Assembly: GCF_009720675.1 (NCBI RefSeq)
Contig: NZ_WNJO01000002.1
Span: 62,001 to 126,000 of the forward strand
Length of the DNA stretch: 64,000 bases
Direction of reading: 5' to 3'
From: Secundilactobacillus folii
GTDB taxonomy: Bacteria; Bacillota; Bacilli; Lactobacillales; Lactobacillaceae
Of the stretch, positions 47,371-58,790 are shown one piece after another; the first letter of the stretch is position 1, and each line of letters starts with the position of its first letter. Position numbers and translations under genes: made by a program. Under the pieces are notes generated by a model that saw only the letters and a program-made list of their open reading frames with translations, ran no database searches and had not been told where the DNA came from.

Positions 47371-48053
47371 TAGTTGAGTATCATATATTTGAGTATATCA
47401 ATATGATACATGTTCTAGCATTACGTTCTATATGGCAAACAAGTAAAAAAGGATCAATAAATCTAAGTTACAAGCCCAACTATTAAGCTGAATGATTAGA
47501 TAGGCGGCTAGCAGGGAAGGCCTAGTGTGTTTTTGGAAAATCCTGCAATCAATAAATTACTGCTGGGCCGGACTTACTATCAGAATAATTCAAAAACTTG
47601 CCTATTTAATCCATAGCTAGTTTTAGTCTTTGTAGGACATATTATCGTTAATTAGCATCGTAATCATGGTTGATTTTGAAGCTGTGTACAGTCCTCAATA
47701 AATACCAATATAAAATTAATCGCATCGGCTGTTTATCTATCTCTAAATTTAAGCCTATAAACTTATAAATTTAATAAATTTTTTTAAATACAACAGGGAA
47801 CTAAGAGATTTTTTAAAACGGGTAGGAACGCTATTGAAATTCGTTTAAAAAGCAATATCTGGTCCTCTTTATTTGCTAATTAAATGGTAGACATTTATAT
47901 ATAACCCGTTGTTTGGGGCTAATACTTAGGCTTGTATCTACCTTATAATTAAACTACAATTTATGCGAAACATATACGTGACATAGGTGGGCTGTTTTAT
48001 GGGGATTTTTTAAAATGCCAACCTGTAATTTAGGGAACGGAGATGATTTCATA
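47371..48053 (+). other. AT-rich gap upstream of the adhesin gene
   Basis: No gene supported: short frames here lack ribosome binding sites and family signatures. The stretch from about 47500 is markedly AT-rich compared with its neighbours and probably holds the adhesin promoter (a TATAAT occurs near 47944, without a convincing -35). Confidence 0.5.
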
Positions 48054-51000
48054 TTGCGCAATAAAGTTAAAAATATGAATGAAGTTAAACGGTATAAATT
48101 GTATAAAGCCAAGGCTCATTGGGTGGTTGCCACTTTGGCTGCTTTTTCCTTTGGTCTAGCTGGTTTGACTAGCTTTAATATTAGTGCAAATGCTGCTACC
48201 ACGACTGAGCAAACCCAAACGGCCAGTGCAAGATCTACTGCAACGGGTTCGGCTGATCAAACCACCGCTAAGTCTGCAGAGAATCAAGCAACGCCGGTTT
48301 CAAATGTAGGGACAACTGATGGGTCTCAGCAGCAAACGACTTCTACAAACGATTCAGCAACAAAGACTTCCGCTGCGACTAATCAAGCAGTAGTAAAACC
48401 AGCTGAAAAGCCATCAGTGAGTCAGTCATCTGCTGGAAGTGTATCGACAGCTAAGGCAGTCACTGAAAATAGCACCCCTAAATCAACCAGCGTTCAGAAT
48501 GTAAAAACGACTAATTTGGGAAGTGCCAATCAGGCGACAGTTGAGCAAGTAAAACAACAGGCGAAGCAAAATTTGGCTCAAACTGGTCAAGCTCAAAAAG
48601 TGACGGCGGCTGATCCAAGTGCAGCAGCAAGTCCTTTAATTACGGCAAAAGATACAAATGGTAAAGCTAGTCTGGATCCGACTGGGACAAGTAACTTAGA
48701 CAAAACCGTGACCAAGGATAATGCGTCGCAACACCTTACAGCCCATACAGTAGATGGGACCGCGTTGACCTTTAATGGCGCCAGCGTGAATATCACTAAT
48801 GGTCATGAAAATACTACTAATTATAATTATACGAAGTCCACTGGTTTATTGACGGCGAACGATCCCATTGACTTCACGCAAGATTTCGGTTTAAACACGA
48901 CCTTGAACGTGAAATGGGATAGTACTATGACTGATTCTAATTATGGTACGAAATATGGCTTTGGCGGTGATGGGATGGCCGTCATCTTTGAACAGCTCCC
49001 CCCAGCACAGGCTTTAAAAACAGCTCAACCCGGCGATAAAATGGGCATTACTAGTGACAATGTCGATAAAGTCGCATATATTGTGTCCAATAATGCCGAG
49101 GGCGGTTCTCCCAATGACAGTCAATATCCGCACAATACCTGGGTTATTTACCAGGCCCAAGACGGTGATCCCAGCACTGCGGTGAATACGACTGATAATG
49201 CACCGATTGAAACCAACGAGTCTAGTGCCTTAAGTGACACCAAGACTTCGGGGTCGCTTCAATACACCTTTAATATTCAATATACAGCCAGCAACAAAAC
49301 TTTAACGACACAAGTCTTGGACGAGAACAATCAAGTTGTTAAAACTTGGACTTATGTTGTTCCGGATGATTATATTGGTAAATACTTCACAATGGCTGTA
49401 TCTGGGAGTAGTGCAGCTTCCCATGCTGCTTATAGTGCAACCATTAATTCATACACTTATGTGGAACCTGCACCGGAGCTAAATATTACTAGCAGCGGGT
49501 TGCCAGATGGGGTTACTGGCCCAAATCAAAGTGACGTTGTTGGTGATGCTAACTCCGTGGTTGCATTTTACCCTGCCGGGACTACTGCGCCAACTAAAGA
49601 TAGTAATGGTAACTCAGTTTCAGTTGCTGTTTCCGTACCAAAGGTTGGCGATTACGCTTTAAATGGGCCTCAATTTGTAACCTTGAAGGATGCTACCAAC
49701 ACCATTAATTTGGCTTATGTACAGACTGCGTCGGCTACGGTTTCTTTTCACGATGAAGATGGTAATACTGATTTGCCAGCCAGTGATAACCAAACTCTAA
49801 CTGGGGTAGTTGGGCAGAGTCCAACATCGCAAACGATTACAATTCCAACCAATTACGTGGTCGATACAACAACCAGTAATCCAAACGTGACGGTCAACAG
49901 TGATGGGACTGTGACTTACACGGGGAAAATCACCGCTGATGATACCGATAATGTGACCCTGAATTTGAAACACAAAATCACTCAGACCAACAAAACCGTC
50001 CCGTTAACTGTTACCTATCAAGGATTACCAAGTAACTTAGCAGTAGCAAACAAAACGGCTCAGATTCCGTATACGGAAAATACTGATGCGGTTACCGGGA
50101 AGGTCACGTATACCTATACTTCCACGCCGGTAGTTATTGATAGCCCAACTGTGAAGGATTACACGCCAAGTCTGCCAAAAGTTTCCCTTACCGTACCAAG
50201 TTTGAATAGTGGGGTGCCTGGTGATACCAACGTGACGGTGACCTACACCCAAACTTCTGCCAGTGCGTTGATTTCTTACCATGATACTGATAGTAACGTT
50301 GACTTGCCAGCCAGTGACGACCAGGGTCTATCAGGGGAGATCGGACAGATTCCAAAGACCAATGCTGTGGCCATTCCACAGGGCTATGTCATTGATACCA
50401 CGGCCATTAATCCCAACATTAATGTCGCTAAGAACGGTGCGGTCACTTACGTTGGCAAAATTACAGCAGATAATACGGATGACGTTGTTATAAATGTAAA
50501 GCACCACTTAACTACTGCAAATAAATCAGTTAACGTGACTGTTAAATACACCGGGTTACCAGCCAATTTAACACCAGCGGATAAACAAACGTCCTTTTCG
50601 TATACGCAAAACACAGATGATATTACTGGCAAAATCACGTATACCTATGGCCCAAGCGTCTCGGTTGATAGTCCTGATGTAGCGGGTTATACACCCGAGG
50701 CAAAGACTGAAGTTATCACTCAGCCAGACCTGGATGCTAACGGAGTGCCAACCGCAACTACTAAGTCGGTGGCTTATACACCTAATAGTGTGACAGCAAA
50801 CGTGTCCATTCCAAGTAACAAGGGTAATCAAACCGTAGCAAATGTTACTGGTAAAACTGGTGATGACCTCACTGTGAACGTTCCTGGCGTTCAGGGTTAT
50901 ACGCCTGATAAGACCACTGTTACGGCTACCGTTAATCCGGATGGTTCGATCACCGTTGATGGACCAAGTGCTAAGTCCGGTGACAAAGGTTACGTGACAT

Positions 51001-54000
51001 ATACCGCTGATCCGCAAAGCATCAATTTAAACTACGTGGATGATGACAATAATGGCACAGCAGTTGGGACGCCGACTAAGGTTTCCGGTGTCACCGATGG
51101 TAGTGTTACTTGGACGGCAGCCGAGCCGACTAATTATCAGTTAGCTACTAACCAGGCTGCAACAGGATCAGTCACCTTTAAGGCCTCTGGTAATAGTGAT
51201 ATTACGGTTCACTTAGTTCATAAGCATAGTAGCACCCTACCCACTGGCTTTACTGGTAAGACTACGCGAACCATTAATTATACGGGAGCAGGTAGCAAGA
51301 CTCCGACTTCAGTAACTCAGACTTTAAATTGGACAACGGATACTGATTTAGTAACGGGTACTGTTACCTATACTCCCGCTGCTGATAGTGGTTACGTGGA
51401 GGTTGATACACCAACCGTTGCCGGATACACCGCTGATCAAGCTAGTGTTCCCGCAGTTACCGAAACCGCCACTACCAAGCAGCCGGGCGATAGTAGTAAC
51501 GTCACAGTAACTTACACAGCAAACAGTGTCATAGCTGATGTGACTGTACCAAGCAATAAGGGTGATCAAACAGTTAAAGGCGTAACCGGCAAAACGGGTG
51601 ACCAAGTTAAGGTCAATGTGCCAGCCATTGCTGGTTACACGGCTGATAAGGCGACAGTGACAGCTACTGTTAACACAGATGGCTCGATCACGGTCAATAC
51701 GCCCGATGCTAAAACTGGTGACGCTAATTACGTGACCTATACCGCTGATCCGCAAAGCATCAACCTAAACTACGTGGATGATGACAATAATGGCACAGCA
51801 GTTGGGACGCCGACTAAGGTTTCCGGTGTCACCGATGGTAGTGTTACTTGGACGGCAGCCGAGCCGACTAATTATCAGTTAGCTACTAACCAGGCTGCAA
51901 CAGGATCAGTCACCTTTAAGGCCTCTGGTAATAGTGATATTACGGTTCACCTGGTTCATAAGCATAGTAGCACCCTACCCACTGGCTTTACTGGTAAGAC
52001 TACGCGAACCATTAATTATACGGGAGCAGGTAGCAAGACTCCGACTTCAGTAACTCAGACTTTAAATTGGACAACGGATACTGATTTAGTAACGGGTACT
52101 GTTACCTATACTCCCGCTGCTGATAGTGGTTACGTGGAGGTTGATACACCAACCGTTGCCGGATACACCGCTGATAAGACCAGTGTTCCCGCGGTTACCA
52201 ATACCGTCACCACCACGCAACCGAGCGATAGTAATATCACAGTAACTTACACGCCCAACAATGTGACGGGCAACGTAATCATTCCAAGTAACAAAGGCAA
52301 TCAAACCGTTAAAAACGTTTCTGGTAAAACGGGGGATGACCTCACTGTGAACGTTCCTAGCGTTCAGGGTTATACGCCTGATAAGACCACTGTTAGTGCG
52401 ACTGTTAATCCAGATGGGACCATCACGGTTGATGGACCAAGTGCGAAATCCGGTGATAAGGGTTACGTTACCTATAATCCGAATACGGTGACGGGTAACG
52501 TTACCATTCCAAGCAACAAGGGTGATCAAGTTGTGACCGGAGTTACTGGTAAAACTGGCGATCAGGTTAATGTCAATACACCTGGAATCACTGGTTATAC
52601 GCCAGATAAAAAGACCGTTACCGCAACGGTCAACCCGGATGGCACCATTACCACGACGGATAAGGTTACGTATACGGCAGATGATCAAAATGTCGTTGTT
52701 AACTTTGTTGATGAAAAGGGTCAATCCTTAGGCAGCACGACTATCAAAGGGGTTACGGATGGCACCATCGACTACAGTAGTGCATTTGCCAAGGAACAAG
52801 ACCTGATCAATAACGGCTATACACCAGTTAAAGGCAACGTGAACGGTTTAGCCGGTGCCGATAGTAAGTTTGATACCAATGATAGTGTTGATCAAACCTA
52901 CACCGTTGAATTAACGGCAGTTCAAAACGTCAAGGTCACCACGACGATTACACCAGTTGATAGTGCTGACAATCCAATTCCTAATAGTTCAGCTACCACA
53001 GTCAATGACTTTCCTGGCACGACTGTTAACGCACCCACTGTTAAGGGTTATACCCCGACAACACCAACAGTCACCATTCCAGCCGCTAAAGACGGGAATG
53101 TCAACGTTACCTATACGCCGGATGCGCAAAATGTCGTTGTTAACTTTGTTGATGAAAAGGGTCAATCCTTAGGCAGCACGACTATCAAAGGCGTCACGAA
53201 CGGCACCATCGATTACAGTAGTGCATTTGCCAAGGAACAAGACCTGATCAATAACGGCTATACGCCGGTTAAGGGCAACGTGAATGGTTTAGCCGGTGCC
53301 GACAGTAAGTTCGATACCAATGATAGTGTTGATCAGACCTACACCGTTCAATTAACGGCAGTTCAAAACGTCAAAGTCACGACGACGATTACACCAGTTG
53401 ATAGTGCTGGTAAGCCGATTCCTAATAGTTCAGCGACCACGGTCAATGACTTTCCTGGCACGACCGTTAACGCACCAACTGTTAAGGGTTATACCCCGAC
53501 AACACCAACAGTCACCATTCCGGCCGTTAAAGACGGTAATGTCAACGTCACTTACACGCCAAATAGCGTGACAGGTAACGTGACCATTCCAAGCAATAAA
53601 GGTGATCAAACCGTTGCTCACGTCACTGGTCATACCGGAGATGACGTTACTGTAAATGTGCCAACTGTTCAGGGTTACACACCTGATAAGTCGACTGTCA
53701 CAGCCACGGTCAATCCAGACGGTTCCATCACTGTGGATGGACCAGCTGCTAAAACTGGTGATAAGGGTTACGTCACTTATAACCCGAACCAAGTTACTGC
53801 AGCCGTCACTATCCCAAGTAATAAGGGTGATCAAATTGTTCAAGGCGTGACTGGTAAAACGGGCGATAAAGTCGATGTTACTGTACCAACGATTGCTGGT
53901 TACACGCCTGATCAGACCACGGTGCCGGCGACTGTCAATCCAGATGGCACGATTACCACGACTGATAAAGTCACTTATACCGCCAGTCCACAGTCCGTTA

Positions 54001-55958
54001 ACTTGAACTACGTTGATGACAATAATAAAGAAGCCGTCGTTGGCAACCCAACCAAGGTTTCCGGTGTCACGGATGGGAGCACGACTTGGAAAGCCGTTGC
54101 GCCTTCGGGGTATGATTTTGCTGCCAACCAAGCAACGACCGGTTCCATCACGTTTAAAGCGACTGGTAACAGTGATATCACCATTCACTTGGTTGAACAT
54201 CACGATACCGGCACCATCACGACCACCAATACCGTGACTTTGACGGGTGTGCCAGCTGGTGCGCCAACGACTGCGTCTGGAATCACGACTTGGAATACTG
54301 ATACCAACACCGCCACTGGCGTCACCACTTATACGCCGGCAGATAATCCAGCGGTTACCCTGCCAAGTGTTGAAGGGTACACGCCAGCACAATCGAGTGT
54401 CAACTTTGACGTGGCTGCTACGACGACTAAACCAGCTGGACAAACGGCTACAATAGCTTATACGCCAAACAGCGTCACAGCTGATGTTACGGTGCCAAGC
54501 AGTCAGGGTAATTTGACCGTTCACAACGTCACTGGTAAGACTGGCGACCAAGTTTCGGTTAAGACGCCAGATATCCAAGGCTATACCCCAGATAAATCAA
54601 CCGTGACTGCTACGGTTAACCCGGATGGCACCATTACGGTTAACGGGCCGAAGGCGAAACCGGGAGATGCCGGTTATGTGAACTATTTGCCAAATACAGT
54701 TACCAATACGGTGACGATTCCTTCTAATAAGGGCGATCAAAAAGTAGCTGGCGTCACCGGTAAGACTGGTGACACAGTTAACGTGAAAGTGCCTGATATT
54801 GCTGGTTACACGCCAGACAAGATCACCGTTCCTGCCACGGTTAATCCCGATGGCACGATTACCACGACCGATAAAGTGACCTACACACCTAATAGTCAAA
54901 CCATTGTCGTCAACTTCATTGATGATCATGGTAACGTCTTAGGTACCAGCACTTTAACGGGGGTTACCGATGGTTCAGTGGATTACAGTCCGGCCTTCAC
55001 CGAAGAGCAAAAGCTGATTGATCAAGGCTATACTCCTGCTAAAGGTAATTTGAACGGCTTAGCTGGTGCAACGCAAACCTTTGGAACAGATCAAGTTGCT
55101 TACACGGTTCAGTTGAGCAAGGTGACTGCGATTAAAAAGACCCAAGTACCTGGGGACGCACCACACACCACCACTACGCAAAATCCAAATGGTGATCTTG
55201 GAGTGACACCAGATGAAAGTGGTTCAACGCATGTTTATACTAAGGTTCAAGTGCCGACGGATGCGCCACATACGACGATGGCCAATAATCCGAATGGTAG
55301 CTTAGGTGTGACACCAACTGAGGATGGCAGCACCCATGTTTATTCAAAGGTTCAAGTACCTGGGGATGCGCCGCATACGACGATGGCCAATAATCCGAAT
55401 GGTAACTTAGGCGTCACACCAACTGAAGATGGCTCGACTCATGTTTATACCAAAGTCAGTTCCCCAGATGGGCCATTTGTCACGCCAAACGATTACTATG
55501 ACAACACGAAGCCAACTGCGCCAGTTACTCCAACTAATCCAACGAACCCGAAGAATCCACAGCAGCCTCAGCAACCGAATAAAGGAAATTCAGGCAGTGG
55601 ACAGCAACCCGAGGGCAACGTCATTGGTAGGTTGAAACAGCACCACAATAATGGTAACGATCAAACAATGCAGGGTGGTTCAAATACCACTGGTATGAAT
55701 ACTGGTCGAAATGGGAATGGTGCTTCTAAGATGTCTGCGGCTGGCGGTAATCAGGCTGCTAACGTCGCCAGTGCCACTGTTGAACCAACTCAGAGTGCTC
55801 AAAATAGGACTCAGAACACAACTGATCAGCAAGGTAAACTACCTCAGACCAGTGATGCTAATGAACGTAACTCAACGCTCTCTGGACTGGGCATCCTAGC
55901 ACTTTTGGGTACCTTGGTCAGTGGTGCTTGGTTCCGTCGTAAGAAGACTAATAAGTAA
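48054..55958 (+). CDS. giant LPXTG-type surface adhesin with L-type lectin domain and MucBP-like repeats
   Basis: About 2634 residues. KxYKxGKxW-type signal (RYKLYKAKAHWVVATLAAFS) with cleavage near NANAA; a Ser/Thr/Gln-rich stalk; an L-type lectin-like domain at about 211-472 (GFGGDGMAVIFEQ, LQYTFNIQYTASNKTL); then to about 2465 many 70-150 residue repeats (VTIPSNKGDQ...GKTGD...TPDKTTVTATVNPDG; VNFVDEKGQSLGSTTIKG); a Pro/Asn-rich wall region; and a sortase signal LPQTS near 2596, hydrophobic helix and RRKKTNK tail. I chose TTG 48054 for its GGAGAT ribosome binding site; ATG 48075 and ATG 48015 are alternatives. It binds host or plant glycans or biofilm partners by inference. Confidence 0.93.
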   Translation: MRNKVKNMNEVKRYKLYKAKAHWVVATLAAFSFGLAGLTSFNISANAATTTEQTQTASARSTATGSADQTTAKSAENQATPVSNVGTTDGSQQQTTSTNDSATKTSAATNQAVVKPAEKPSVSQSSAGSVSTAKAVTENSTPKSTSVQNVKTTNLGSANQATVEQVKQQAKQNLAQTGQAQKVTAADPSAAASPLITAKDTNGKASLDPTGTSNLDKTVTKDNASQHLTAHTVDGTALTFNGASVNITNGHENTTNYNYTKSTGLLTANDPIDFTQDFGLNTTLNVKWDSTMTDSNYGTKYGFGGDGMAVIFEQLPPAQALKTAQPGDKMGITSDNVDKVAYIVSNNAEGGSPNDSQYPHNTWVIYQAQDGDPSTAVNTTDNAPIETNESSALSDTKTSGSLQYTFNIQYTASNKTLTTQVLDENNQVVKTWTYVVPDDYIGKYFTMAVSGSSAASHAAYSATINSYTYVEPAPELNITSSGLPDGVTGPNQSDVVGDANSVVAFYPAGTTAPTKDSNGNSVSVAVSVPKVGDYALNGPQFVTLKDATNTINLAYVQTASATVSFHDEDGNTDLPASDNQTLTGVVGQSPTSQTITIPTNYVVDTTTSNPNVTVNSDGTVTYTGKITADDTDNVTLNLKHKITQTNKTVPLTVTYQGLPSNLAVANKTAQIPYTENTDAVTGKVTYTYTSTPVVIDSPTVKDYTPSLPKVSLTVPSLNSGVPGDTNVTVTYTQTSASALISYHDTDSNVDLPASDDQGLSGEIGQIPKTNAVAIPQGYVIDTTAINPNINVAKNGAVTYVGKITADNTDDVVINVKHHLTTANKSVNVTVKYTGLPANLTPADKQTSFSYTQNTDDITGKITYTYGPSVSVDSPDVAGYTPEAKTEVITQPDLDANGVPTATTKSVAYTPNSVTANVSIPSNKGNQTVANVTGKTGDDLTVNVPGVQGYTPDKTTVTATVNPDGSITVDGPSAKSGDKGYVTYTADPQSINLNYVDDDNNGTAVGTPTKVSGVTDGSVTWTAAEPTNYQLATNQAATGSVTFKASGNSDITVHLVHKHSSTLPTGFTGKTTRTINYTGAGSKTPTSVTQTLNWTTDTDLVTGTVTYTPAADSGYVEVDTPTVAGYTADQASVPAVTETATTKQPGDSSNVTVTYTANSVIADVTVPSNKGDQTVKGVTGKTGDQVKVNVPAIAGYTADKATVTATVNTDGSITVNTPDAKTGDANYVTYTADPQSINLNYVDDDNNGTAVGTPTKVSGVTDGSVTWTAAEPTNYQLATNQAATGSVTFKASGNSDITVHLVHKHSSTLPTGFTGKTTRTINYTGAGSKTPTSVTQTLNWTTDTDLVTGTVTYTPAADSGYVEVDTPTVAGYTADKTSVPAVTNTVTTTQPSDSNITVTYTPNNVTGNVIIPSNKGNQTVKNVSGKTGDDLTVNVPSVQGYTPDKTTVSATVNPDGTITVDGPSAKSGDKGYVTYNPNTVTGNVTIPSNKGDQVVTGVTGKTGDQVNVNTPGITGYTPDKKTVTATVNPDGTITTTDKVTYTADDQNVVVNFVDEKGQSLGSTTIKGVTDGTIDYSSAFAKEQDLINNGYTPVKGNVNGLAGADSKFDTNDSVDQTYTVELTAVQNVKVTTTITPVDSADNPIPNSSATTVNDFPGTTVNAPTVKGYTPTTPTVTIPAAKDGNVNVTYTPDAQNVVVNFVDEKGQSLGSTTIKGVTNGTIDYSSAFAKEQDLINNGYTPVKGNVNGLAGADSKFDTNDSVDQTYTVQLTAVQNVKVTTTITPVDSAGKPIPNSSATTVNDFPGTTVNAPTVKGYTPTTPTVTIPAVKDGNVNVTYTPNSVTGNVTIPSNKGDQTVAHVTGHTGDDVTVNVPTVQGYTPDKSTVTATVNPDGSITVDGPAAKTGDKGYVTYNPNQVTAAVTIPSNKGDQIVQGVTGKTGDKVDVTVPTIAGYTPDQTTVPATVNPDGTITTTDKVTYTASPQSVNLNYVDDNNKEAVVGNPTKVSGVTDGSTTWKAVAPSGYDFAANQATTGSITFKATGNSDITIHLVEHHDTGTITTTNTVTLTGVPAGAPTTASGITTWNTDTNTATGVTTYTPADNPAVTLPSVEGYTPAQSSVNFDVAATTTKPAGQTATIAYTPNSVTADVTVPSSQGNLTVHNVTGKTGDQVSVKTPDIQGYTPDKSTVTATVNPDGTITVNGPKAKPGDAGYVNYLPNTVTNTVTIPSNKGDQKVAGVTGKTGDTVNVKVPDIAGYTPDKITVPATVNPDGTITTTDKVTYTPNSQTIVVNFIDDHGNVLGTSTLTGVTDGSVDYSPAFTEEQKLIDQGYTPAKGNLNGLAGATQTFGTDQVAYTVQLSKVTAIKKTQVPGDAPHTTTTQNPNGDLGVTPDESGSTHVYTKVQVPTDAPHTTMANNPNGSLGVTPTEDGSTHVYSKVQVPGDAPHTTMANNPNGNLGVTPTEDGSTHVYTKVSSPDGPFVTPNDYYDNTKPTAPVTPTNPTNPKNPQQPQQPNKGNSGSGQQPEGNVIGRLKQHHNNGNDQTMQGGSNTTGMNTGRNGNGASKMSAAGGNQAANVASATVEPTQSAQNRTQNTTDQQGKLPQTSDANERNSTLSGLGILALLGTLVSGAWFRRKKTNK
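51000..52175 (+). repeat. direct duplication inside the adhesin gene (438-bp units)
   Basis: Bases 51000-51437 recur at 51738-52175 (offset 738) with about four differences by eye. The 300 bp between the copies are a diverged repeat domain. Near-identity points to recent duplication or gene conversion. Confidence 0.85.
52687..53559 (+). repeat. tandem 441-bp repeat inside the adhesin gene
   Basis: Bases from about 52687 recur from about 53128 (offset 441, 147 codons), coding two nearly identical VNFVDEKGQSLGSTTIKG... domains. Differences are mostly silent. Confidence 0.8.
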
Positions 55959-56096: not shown

Positions 56097-57458
56097 TCAA
56101 CCTTCACTTTGTAAAGACGATTTTGGATGGATTCCCCAAGCAGCAACCGCCACAACCAGACTGAGGCCAAACAATAACGCGTAGCACCACCAAGCACTAT
56201 TTGCTGTGGCGGCGGCAGTTGTACCCCGCATTGCCAACATAGCCGCCATCAAAGTGGTACCCAGAGAGCCAGCGTATTGTTGCAGAGTGTTAAAGCTGGC
56301 ATTGCCATCGCCGATATTTTGCTTCGGCAGTTGTTGTAAGCCAAACGTTAGTGTGTTGTTAAATACAGCACAGAAGCCCAATTCATAAAGAATATTGCCA
56401 GCAAGCATGATCGGCAAAGTTAGGTGACCAGCCAGCAGCCAGGTGCCAGCAGTACTGATCAGCATTAAAGAACAGCCGACAGCTAAAACAAACCGAATCC
56501 CGTACTGATCGAACCAGCGGCCAGTAAGTGGTCCTAAAAAGGCGGATAGCACAGCGCCGGCCATCAATATTAGCCCCGCACCAAACGAGCCCAAATGCCA
56601 GACGATTTGTGCGTAAGTCGGGATCAGTATCGTTTGACCGATTTGCATGAACTGAACCAAAAAGTAGATCAGTACCGCACGGATGAAAGTTCTGTGGGTA
56701 AAAATACGTACGTCAATTAACGGTTGCCTGATATGGGTAGCCATCCAAATAAAACCGGTCAGCGCGATAAGACCGATTACCAGCGCTGCGACACCCAGTA
56801 GTTGACGAATTTCGGTGATGCCAATCACGAGGCCGCTCAGTGCAACGGCAATCAGGCAAAATTGGACCAGTGGGAAATGGCGTTTATCCGTGGGTGTCTT
56901 AATGGTATTTACAGCGGCTAGCGTGCCAAAAATGATACCAACCGGTAAAATGAACCAAAAAATCATTCGCCAGTTCAGCATCTGGTTGACCAGACCGCCG
57001 TAAGTGGGGCCAAGAGAGGGGGCTAGGGCAATGACGACGCCACCGGTCCCAACGTAGATTCCTTGACGGCTGGCTGGAACTTGCCGCATGATGGTACTGA
57101 AAAATAAGGGAATCGCTATACCTGTAGCAACGCCTTGGATGACCCGGCCGGTGAGTAACCAGATCAGATTCGATGCCAACGCGCAAATCACCCCACCGAT
57201 AACAAATAAGCTGGTACCAGTGATAACCAGTTGTCGAGCAGTAAAGCGGGTTTCTGAAAATGCAGTGACGCTCATCGTGATCGCCACCACGAGCAAATAA
57301 GCGGTGGTGACCCACTGTGCAGCAGTTAGACTGACGTTAAACTGCCGCATTAGCGTTGGAAAGGTGACGTTGAGTGAGGTTTCAACTAGAATGCCGCAAA
57401 AGGCCAATCCCGCGAGACCCAAAATAGTAAGTTTAGTGCGTAACGAAACAACTGTCAA
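56097..57458 (-). CDS. MFS drug efflux pump, DHA2 (14-TM) family, attenuator-controlled
   Basis: 453 residues. VETSLNVTFPTLMRQFNVSL and QWVTTAYLLVVAITM in TM1-2, LTGRVIQGVATGIAIPLFFS (motif B), GPTYGGLVNQML (motif C), about 14 membrane segments. The start is TTG at 57458 preceded by AGGAGG at an 8-base spacing; that ribosome binding site lies inside the 3' arm of a terminator hairpin in the leader. The organisation resembles drug pumps induced by attenuation. It is a distant paralogue of the DHA2 gene at 21505. Substrate unknown. Confidence 0.9.
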   Translation of the reverse strand: MTVVSLRTKLTILGLAGLAFCGILVETSLNVTFPTLMRQFNVSLTAAQWVTTAYLLVVAITMSVTAFSETRFTARQLVITGTSLFVIGGVICALASNLIWLLTGRVIQGVATGIAIPLFFSTIMRQVPASRQGIYVGTGGVVIALAPSLGPTYGGLVNQMLNWRMIFWFILPVGIIFGTLAAVNTIKTPTDKRHFPLVQFCLIAVALSGLVIGITEIRQLLGVAALVIGLIALTGFIWMATHIRQPLIDVRIFTHRTFIRAVLIYFLVQFMQIGQTILIPTYAQIVWHLGSFGAGLILMAGAVLSAFLGPLTGRWFDQYGIRFVLAVGCSLMLISTAGTWLLAGHLTLPIMLAGNILYELGFCAVFNNTLTFGLQQLPKQNIGDGNASFNTLQQYAGSLGTTLMAAMLAMRGTTAAATANSAWWCYALLFGLSLVVAVAAWGIHPKSSLQSEG

Positions 57459-57559
57459 AAAAAGACCTCCTGAGCCAAAGCCTCTTACACGGGGCTTTGG
57501 GACCGAGGTCCTTACGGTTTATCCGAGCCACACATGTGTGGCTTTGGCGAAAATATCTA
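57457..57559 (-). promoter_or_regulatory. leader RNA with alternative hairpins over the pump RBS
   Basis: Minus strand, 5' to 3': A segment GCCAAAGCC (57548-57540); palindrome GCCACACATGTGTGGC (57542-57527); GGACC/GGTCC hairpin (57511-57500); B segment CCAAAGCC (57500-57493); C segment GGCTTTGGC (57482-57474). C can pair with A (9 bp) or B (8 bp). GACCTC (57510-57505) pairs with GAGGTC (57469-57464), followed by seven U, making a terminator that hides AGGAGG (57471-57466). An ATG-to-TAA frame of seven codons (MCGSDKP) spans 57535-57512 but lacks a clear ribosome binding site. Confidence 0.7.
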
Positions 57560-57565
57560 GTGCTT

Positions 57566-57594
57566 ACTTTAGCAAATTTAAAAAATCCTTGCAA
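57566..57594 (-). promoter_or_regulatory. promoter of the pump leader
   Basis: Minus strand TTGCAA, 17 bp, TAAAGT, with TGC before the -10. The start is predicted near 57559. Confidence 0.7.
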
Positions 57595-57620
57595 GTGCAA
57601 TTCACCAGGCGGTTCATGCA

Positions 57621-58790
57621 CTAATGATTCTGGTCATACAATTCAACTAATCGTTGTCTCAAAGCATCATCGTAAGCGGTCAGATACAGCCCGTACTTAC
57701 CACGCTTCATTAATACGTTTAATACGTTAGCGATGAAGGTTTTGTACTCCTCGCGGGTAAATTTGATATCCTTGCGCTTCTTGAAGACTTCCTTATGTGA
57801 ATACTTTTCCGGAATGATCGTCATGGTATCAGTTTTAGCATCATAGCCAAAGGAAGGCCCAATAATCATGCCGACGTAGTTCAAATCAAAGCCTTGCAAG
57901 GTATAAATCGTTCCAACTTGAGTAATTGAGCCTTCACGCTTTGCCCAGTGCGTTCGTTGCGGATCCCACTCATCCCATGGCAGACTGAAACTGTCCATTT
58001 CGACGTTGTGGCGCCCGTCGATTCGTGGAAAACCAGACGTGGCCACAACCCGGCTCATACCATACTCCTTGTTGCGCTTTTTAATGTCTTCAAATAGTGC
58101 ACCGGCAGTATCGTAAACCTTGAATTCAAAATCACTATTGTCTGGAAAGGGCTTGAGTGGTTTTTCTTCGGTTAAGTCATCCATCCACTGCACCTGTTCA
58201 TCGCTGGCAACCATTCGATACTGAAAATTCATGTCGAACATTTTGTACGGGTGGTTGCCAATTGTTTTGAACAGGAGGTCTTTATCCCAGTACATCTTAG
58301 TTTGGAAAACCTGGTCGAAGTCGTAAACGACGACCACCACTTTAGCAAGGTTCATCAGGTCGGTCAGTTGGTTGGGACCGCGATAATGCGCGTAGGGCTC
58401 AGGCTTTGAATAGAGCAGGTGCGCTTCATCAACGAAAATAATGTCGTACTTTTGGTGGTTTTTTTGAGCGTAGTTGATCAGCGATGTTGGGCGACGAATG
58501 TCACCGGCCTTCATGTGTGGAATTGACTCGGCCAGATCGCGGTAAGCCTTATAAAGTTCGGGGTGATTGACGACCAGAGAGGTTTTGTAGTGCTTATCCG
58601 TCATGTATTTTCGAACCAGCTCCATCAGCACGACTGACTTTCCGGTTCCAGCGGCACCGTCAATAATTGCCACGGACGTCTTTTTGTCATTTAATGTCTG
58701 TTGAATATAATCATTAATATTGGTGATCACAGTTTTTTGATCGTCGGACAGGTCATCCACGAAAAACTGCTCCTTTAAAATTTCATTCAT
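57621..58790 (-). CDS. DUF2075 superfamily 1 helicase-like ATPase
   Basis: 389 residues. Walker A IIDGAAGTGKSVVLMEL near 42-58, Walker B YDIIFVDEAHLLYS, and C-terminal SF1-like TIYTLQGFDLNYVGMIIGPSFGYD and YLTAYDDALRQRL. This is the DUF2075 domain, elsewhere fused to nuclease (GIY-YIG) or other domains in predicted defence or RNA/DNA-processing proteins; here it stands alone. The ATG at 58790 follows AGGAG. A role in stress or phage defence is only a possibility. Confidence 0.88.
   Translation of the reverse strand: MNEILKEQFFVDDLSDDQKTVITNINDYIQQTLNDKKTSVAIIDGAAGTGKSVVLMELVRKYMTDKHYKTSLVVNHPELYKAYRDLAESIPHMKAGDIRRPTSLINYAQKNHQKYDIIFVDEAHLLYSKPEPYAHYRGPNQLTDLMNLAKVVVVVYDFDQVFQTKMYWDKDLLFKTIGNHPYKMFDMNFQYRMVASDEQVQWMDDLTEEKPLKPFPDNSDFEFKVYDTAGALFEDIKKRNKEYGMSRVVATSGFPRIDGRHNVEMDSFSLPWDEWDPQRTHWAKREGSITQVGTIYTLQGFDLNYVGMIIGPSFGYDAKTDTMTIIPEKYSHKEVFKKRKDIKFTREEYKTFIANVLNVLMKRGKYGLYLTAYDDALRQRLVELYDQNH

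Follow-up and report, generated by a model that had tools for sequence, protein, structure and literature searches.

A leader with two predicted alternative folds before a drug-exporter-like gene of Secundilactobacillus folii, probably a divergent representative of a riboswitch-like family not yet catalogued

The leader of the Bacillus subtilis resistance gene vmlR, as portrayed in parts of PMC9226507, carries an upstream open reading frame (uORF) within the hairpin SL-1. Its anti-antiterminator hairpin, antiterminator and terminator are mutually exclusive and its Shine-Dalgarno (SD) sequence is hidden in read-through RNA, an arrangement that the leader analysed here resembles. By the same partial account, vmlR needs a translated uORF with its own SD, whereas the uORF here is unsupported, and vmlR has separate terminator and SD-hiding hairpins where one hairpin here would do both. 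The mef/mel attenuator of Streptococcus (PMC5418344, in excerpt) likewise attenuates transcription of a Gram-positive MFS pump, in response to macrolides. The guanidine-IV riboswitch is also a terminator-controlled ON switch before an exporter gene, and the sections of PMC7736828 considered describe a Lactococcus lactis construct with a 7-U terminator before the start codon, as here. The ABC-leader of a multidrug export operon in Lactobacillus gasseri and L. johnsonii (extract of PMC2965389) is another uncharacterised attenuator of a lactobacillar drug exporter; it belongs to an ABC operon in other species and is likened to our leader by description. The phenolic-induced L. plantarum pumps named in a portion of PMC8772861 could not be mapped onto this gene. 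Searches of an open-access library listed no paper recognised as dealing with this leader.

The leader lies on the minus strand of a 64,000-nt stretch of the S. folii genome (contig NZ_WNJO01000002.1, positions 62,001 to 126,000; hereafter the window) and spans about 100 nt upstream of a drug-exporter-like MFS gene. A search of the window against Rfam 15 at the gathering threshold left the leader unmatched, the sole match being a tRNA elsewhere; the region 57420-57640 at E<=10 gave three weak matches, the best of them at 16.2 bits where the cut-off is 46. Unlike the guanidine-IV class, which we take to be included in Rfam 15, the window leader thus has no Rfam match. All orthologue loci outside the window except L046, L049, L052, L056 and L060, twenty in number and including the 18 that carry the motif described below or its loose form, were scanned at E<=5: every above-cut-off match fell outside the leaders, and one weak match (26.4, cut-off 84.5) overlaps the L051 leader on the opposite strand. 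The view that no named riboswitch has this layout, put forward in an earlier note on this DNA, therefore holds for Rfam in the window and these 20 loci. Upstream of the L050 pump, rli28 (81 bits) and the RatA RNA antitoxin (49.2, cut-off 49) matched on opposite strands (821-1010, plus, and 1072-1161, minus), perhaps marking a type I toxin-antitoxin locus.

Two alternative folds in the window leader

The pump protein matches PF07690 (MFS_1), TIGR00711 (EmrB subfamily) at 1e-65 and the LmrB model at 3.4e-58, the last two under their curated cut-offs. Its start was placed after GGAGG, as in most orthologues. The gene upstream on the same strand, which ends at 57621, contains a Schlafen group 3 helicase domain. 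The gene arranged tail to tail with that of the pump, at 48015-55958 on the plus strand, encodes a repeat-rich surface protein of 2647 aa whose C-terminus looks like a sorting signal. The elements of the leader are as follows.

57458-56097, minus strand: pump gene, DHA2/EmrB-LmrB-like MFS exporter of 453 aa, TTG start at 57458-57456
57594-57566, minus strand: possible promoter read by eye, TTGCAA, 17 nt, (TGC)TAAAGT
57548-57540, minus strand: segment A, GCCAAAGCC, putative antiterminator strand and the more distant partner of D
57543-57526, minus strand: perfect 18-nt palindrome, AGCCACACATGTGTGGCT
57543-57537 with 57532-57526, minus strand: palindrome hairpin, AGCCACA with TGTGGCT, CATG loop
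57535-57512, minus strand: seven-codon frame, ATG TGT GGC TCG GAT AAA CCG TAA (MCGSDKP-stop)
57510-57493, minus strand: segment C, terminator 5′ side, GACCTC (57510-57505) and CCAAAGCC (57500-57493)
57482-57474, minus strand: segment D, GGCTTTGGC, partner of A (ON) or C (OFF)
57471-57457, minus strand: terminator 3′ arm, GAGGTC (57469-57464) then U7 (57463-57457)
57471-57466, minus strand: SD sequence AGGAGG, within the terminator 3′ arm

The double pairing that drew attention to this leader is real: the minus-strand letters confirm that A and the 57500-57493 part of C are both complementary to D, over 9 bp and 8 bp respectively and with no mismatch in either. Equally borne out is the claimed terminator, GACCTC/GAGGTC plus seven U, that would bury the ribosome binding site; the window has the SD within the 3′ arm, the U tract and, behind them, the orthologous MFS gene with its start codon. 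The palindrome reported along with them exists too, its true length being 18 nt where 16 bp had been given. The possible promoter has eight of 12 consensus matches, falls under the cut of the promoter scan and is absent from its list; as a candidate, it would place the RNA 5′ end near 57559.

Folding of a 161-nt stretch gave z = -2.59, with one of 200 shuffles equally good, and two separate upstream partners of this strength for one 3′ strand arose in none of 400 dinucleotide shuffles. Window A alone as partner of D was matched by 20/2000 and 6/1000 shuffles of the upstream region (p ~0.01). From 57560, the minimum free energy fold (-39.0 kcal/mol) consists of the palindrome hairpin and the terminator; with A:D forced, the energy is -34.3 kcal/mol and the AGCC of C finds its partner in the palindrome's 3′ half, so that 1:2 and 3:4 give way to 1:4 and 2:3. 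As the 3′ end grows, C:D comes first (P 0.85 at 57477), A:D then reaches 0.97-0.99 for ends at 57473-57467, and the terminator dominates once GAGGTC and the U tract have emerged, P(C:D) being 0.90 at 57465 and 0.99 from 57463. These figures are equilibrium values for an assumed RNA 5′ end and do not tell which state cells reach. They support, as predictions, the idea of two mutually exclusive folds coupling termination to SD hiding, and the window RNA is predicted to be poised between two states.

In the OFF state, the palindrome hairpin would form and take up the end of A, C would pair with D, and the finished terminator, stem plus U7, would stop transcription; any read-through RNA would keep its SD locked within the stem. 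In the ON state, A would pair with D and the palindrome 3′ half with the AGCC of C, so that the terminator would be unable to form and the SD would be free.

Pairing conserved upstream of orthologous pumps

Pump matches with E below 1e-105 were obtained from 26 of 397 genomes of the same family, the window included, the next match being at 5e-98. Because the 26 proteins form a single clade (support 100/99) apart from eight paralogues, they are called orthologues; the leaders of 17 remote relatives (23-32% identity) were left out of the comparison. The window protein has a long branch beside that of L060, also long, and this placement was flagged as unsure. Neighbouring genes vary across the 12 orthologue loci listed and none recurs throughout. 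An iron-dependent-repressor-type gene lies upstream in L044, which a neighbour in L047 resembles by eye, and a LysR-type gene in L059. A plasmid search with the pump returned zero matches. DNA searches with the leader itself matched the window alone among 15 genomes of the genus and, beyond the window, yielded just pieces of at most 40 bases at E 5e-4 or worse among the 397 genomes of the family.

In many leaders the nucleotides immediately ahead of GGAGG form the 3′ arm of a hairpin resembling a terminator and also fit a second stretch farther upstream. In a one-sided test of the best upstream partner of D against shuffles of the upstream region, 15 of the 26 orthologue leaders reached p<=0.05 and nine p<=0.01, with 0.006 for the window. 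Four controls (substitutes for D drawn from two coding-region positions, D reversed, and D complemented without reversal) gave 1, 2, 1 and 1 of 26 at the first level and 0, 0, 0 and 1 at the second. Among the 21 paralogues, a start could be set in 20, of whose leaders one passed at p<=0.05 and none at p<=0.01. The letters of A and D vary by lineage and stay complementary (CCAAGG/CCTTGG, CGCGGG/CCCGCG, CTGAAGCAC/GTGCTTCAG, and GCCAAAGCC/GGCTTTGGC in the window); since they differ among genera with complementarity kept, we read them as compensating change. For A:D together with the stem of the motif described below, neither the covariation score nor the number of cells changed on both sides in ten leaders was reached in 500 shuffles (0/500 each). 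Conservation and covariation upstream of orthologous pumps, whose absence the earlier note had named as one ground for refuting its proposal, were thus found.

The 15 passing leaders are not independent, since a single genus (g38) supplies seven. Two others that pass, L046 and L049 of genus g12, have no evident terminator, which lowers the number fitting the model from 15 to 13. By eye, all four g12 orthologues (L046, L049, L052, L056) seem to have no terminator directly before the start; control there would then have been lost or replaced. The 11 leaders failing at p<=0.05 are L039 (0.056), L040, L050, L051, L059, L060, the g6 leaders L048, L054 and L061, which are all that genus has here, and half of the four g12 leaders (L052, L056). 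The motif is present in five of the 11 (L039, L048, L051, L054, L061), and its loose form in two more (L050, L059). An ungapped test for double partners put the window, L038, L057 and L058 at 0/400 shuffles and L039, L047, L055 and L060 at <=0.05; the remaining 18 leaders were unremarkable, partly because their terminators contain mismatches. The one-sided A:D test was preferred to it as the principal one.

Fourteen leaders picked after the first A:D test, L039 and L042 at p 0.05-0.07 among them, were folded with an assumed 5′ end 8 nt before A. Before the SD arm exists, P(A:D) is >=0.92 in 12 of the 14 and just 0.37-0.44 in L057 and L058; at full length it is <=0.06 in all 14.

An internal-loop hairpin seen, in the genomes searched, only before this pump

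Fourteen of the 26 orthologue leaders share a motif that lies between A and D, a hairpin having a 7-bp stem and the internal loop CUU-GUAUA-UC / GA-A-AAG (GUAUA/A). A looser script recovered the motif in four further leaders (L050, L053, L055, L059), in which the stem model R2 gave no match. Two models were built: R1, comprising A:D and the stem, from 10 leaders, and R2, the stem alone, from 12. R1 matched exactly its 10 source genomes among the 397 of the family. R2, run with stricter filters and 14 candidates scored per genome, matched 14 of 395 family genomes, each time within the leader of this pump gene and nowhere else. As R2 was built on 12 leaders, just L042 and L054 are new. It found none in 335 genomes of the order, among which the 14 positive genomes, the natural positive control, evidently are not.

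Across 12 of these leaders, 88.6% of cells in the motif stem pair, versus 48.5-56.7% in slid versions. For the stem alone, seven cells changed on both sides were reached by 18/500 shuffles and the covariation score by 32/500; the corresponding figures for pairs changed on both sides and for further pair types were 183/500 and 447/500. This covariation signal is moderate because the core is invariant. With A:D forced, the stem around GUAUA refolds freely in seven of the ten leaders having both motif and A:D (two with a wider loop), and a three-way junction results. In g6 (L048, L054, L061), at about -97 to -31 from the start codon, a clean terminator of its own comes after the motif hairpin and leaves the ribosome binding site outside; here the motif sits on a platform for termination only. 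The L060 leader has no motif and shows a 22-bp terminator-like hairpin at -87 to -40 from the start codon, with an upstream AGGGTGC that can pair with the 3′ arm (8/400 shuffles).

The motif is absent from the window: in 57400-57700 the best scores were 4.3 bits (R2) and 8.9 bits (R1), both at chance level, the latter being merely the outer stem placed on C:D. As the window keeps the platform without the motif, the sensor would have diverged or gone. In the protein tree, both sister groups include leaders with the motif (fork supports 81/82 for the one holding the window), which makes loss or replacement in the window's lineage the simpler history.

Competing readings and significance

The computational basis consists of the two folds, their order in the growing transcript, the compensating changes in A:D and a motif tied to one pump. 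Because the same arrangement recurs in other letters before the same pump in relatives, it is probably a genuine uncatalogued RNA switch. We consider it likely that the window leader is a two-level attenuator of transcription and translation and belongs, as a diverged member, to an uncatalogued riboswitch-like family whose ON form a signal stabilises, with the sensor replaced or lost in the window. On this model it would descend from an old leader of the pump clade, many members of which would place the GUAUA/A hairpin between A and D in a three-way junction when ON. The likeliest signal is a pump substrate or the stress it causes; it would favour the ON form, and the sensing part would have been exchanged or lost in the window. 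The leader family is new, its mechanism class (termination plus SD hiding) is known, and the window leader stands apart in it by having no core loop. The most economical account is that a small molecule or a stress signal acts on the RNA, either directly or via a factor, with a ribosome-based one next. More tentatively, the family may represent a new riboswitch class for one exporter, in which the GUAUA/A loop of an A:D-closed three-way junction would bind the pump substrate and so block the terminator that hides the ribosome binding site, the window possibly joining this platform to a different sensor.

A decayed switch, which has kept its platform, lost its sensor and sets a constant, lower pump level in this species, is a somewhat doubtful proposition. 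The missing motif, the long protein branch and the presence of the motif in both sister groups agree with it, yet both A:D and C:D are free of mismatches, and decay should have cost the unused one.

Sensing by the ribosome, as in erm-, vmlR- or mef-type attenuators, appears unlikely. An antibiotic-stalled ribosome on a short frame would free A or mask C, letting A:D form. The seven-codon frame overlaps the palindrome hairpin much as the vmlR uORF lies within SL-1 (by the partial text of PMC9226507), and in seven of the 14 motif leaders a frame with an SD before it runs across the motif. The frame in the window exists as the earlier note gave it; a role for it is unsupported, for no SD-like sequence precedes its ATG, and it is probably not translated. 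The relatives' frames differ from it, with 11, 25 or 70 codons in two phases, and are absent from the other seven motif leaders, so the letters are conserved rather than a peptide; coding of a peptide by the motif was rejected on these differing phases. A short leader frame with an SD, kept across relatives and characteristic of such attenuators, was not found.

Quite improbable is a plain intergenic terminator of the upstream gene, with the A:D match a chance event and the pump transcribed from a promoter-like TTGACA-17-TAAACT at 57458-57430 on the minus strand. That site has 10 of 12 consensus matches, begins at the pump's own TTG and is probably fortuitous, and the upstream gene does end nearby on the same strand; yet the SD and start codon sit within and directly behind the hairpin here and in many orthologues, initiation inside the gene would truncate the N-terminus, and A:D is conserved. 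Least probable of all, the palindrome would be a repressor operator and the RNA folds incidental: it is perfect, lies near the presumed RNA start, is the longest of the 26 leaders (the next perfect one has 12 nt) and has a palindromic CATG loop that a bare hairpin would not need, but its 16-nt core has a single site in the genome even with up to two mismatches, which excludes a regulon and leaves a repressor with one target conceivable, the pump has no regulator gene directly next to it in the window, and the other 25 leaders have no such palindrome.

Direct sensing of drugs by RNA is a disputed idea, as noted in a part of PMC5418344. A conserved leader tied to one exporter clade and having no conserved leader peptide offers a testable candidate for a drug-sensing RNA, and a ligand, if found, would reveal what the pump exports. 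The window leader suggests, in addition, that a platform in which one strand has two partners can outlive its sensor.
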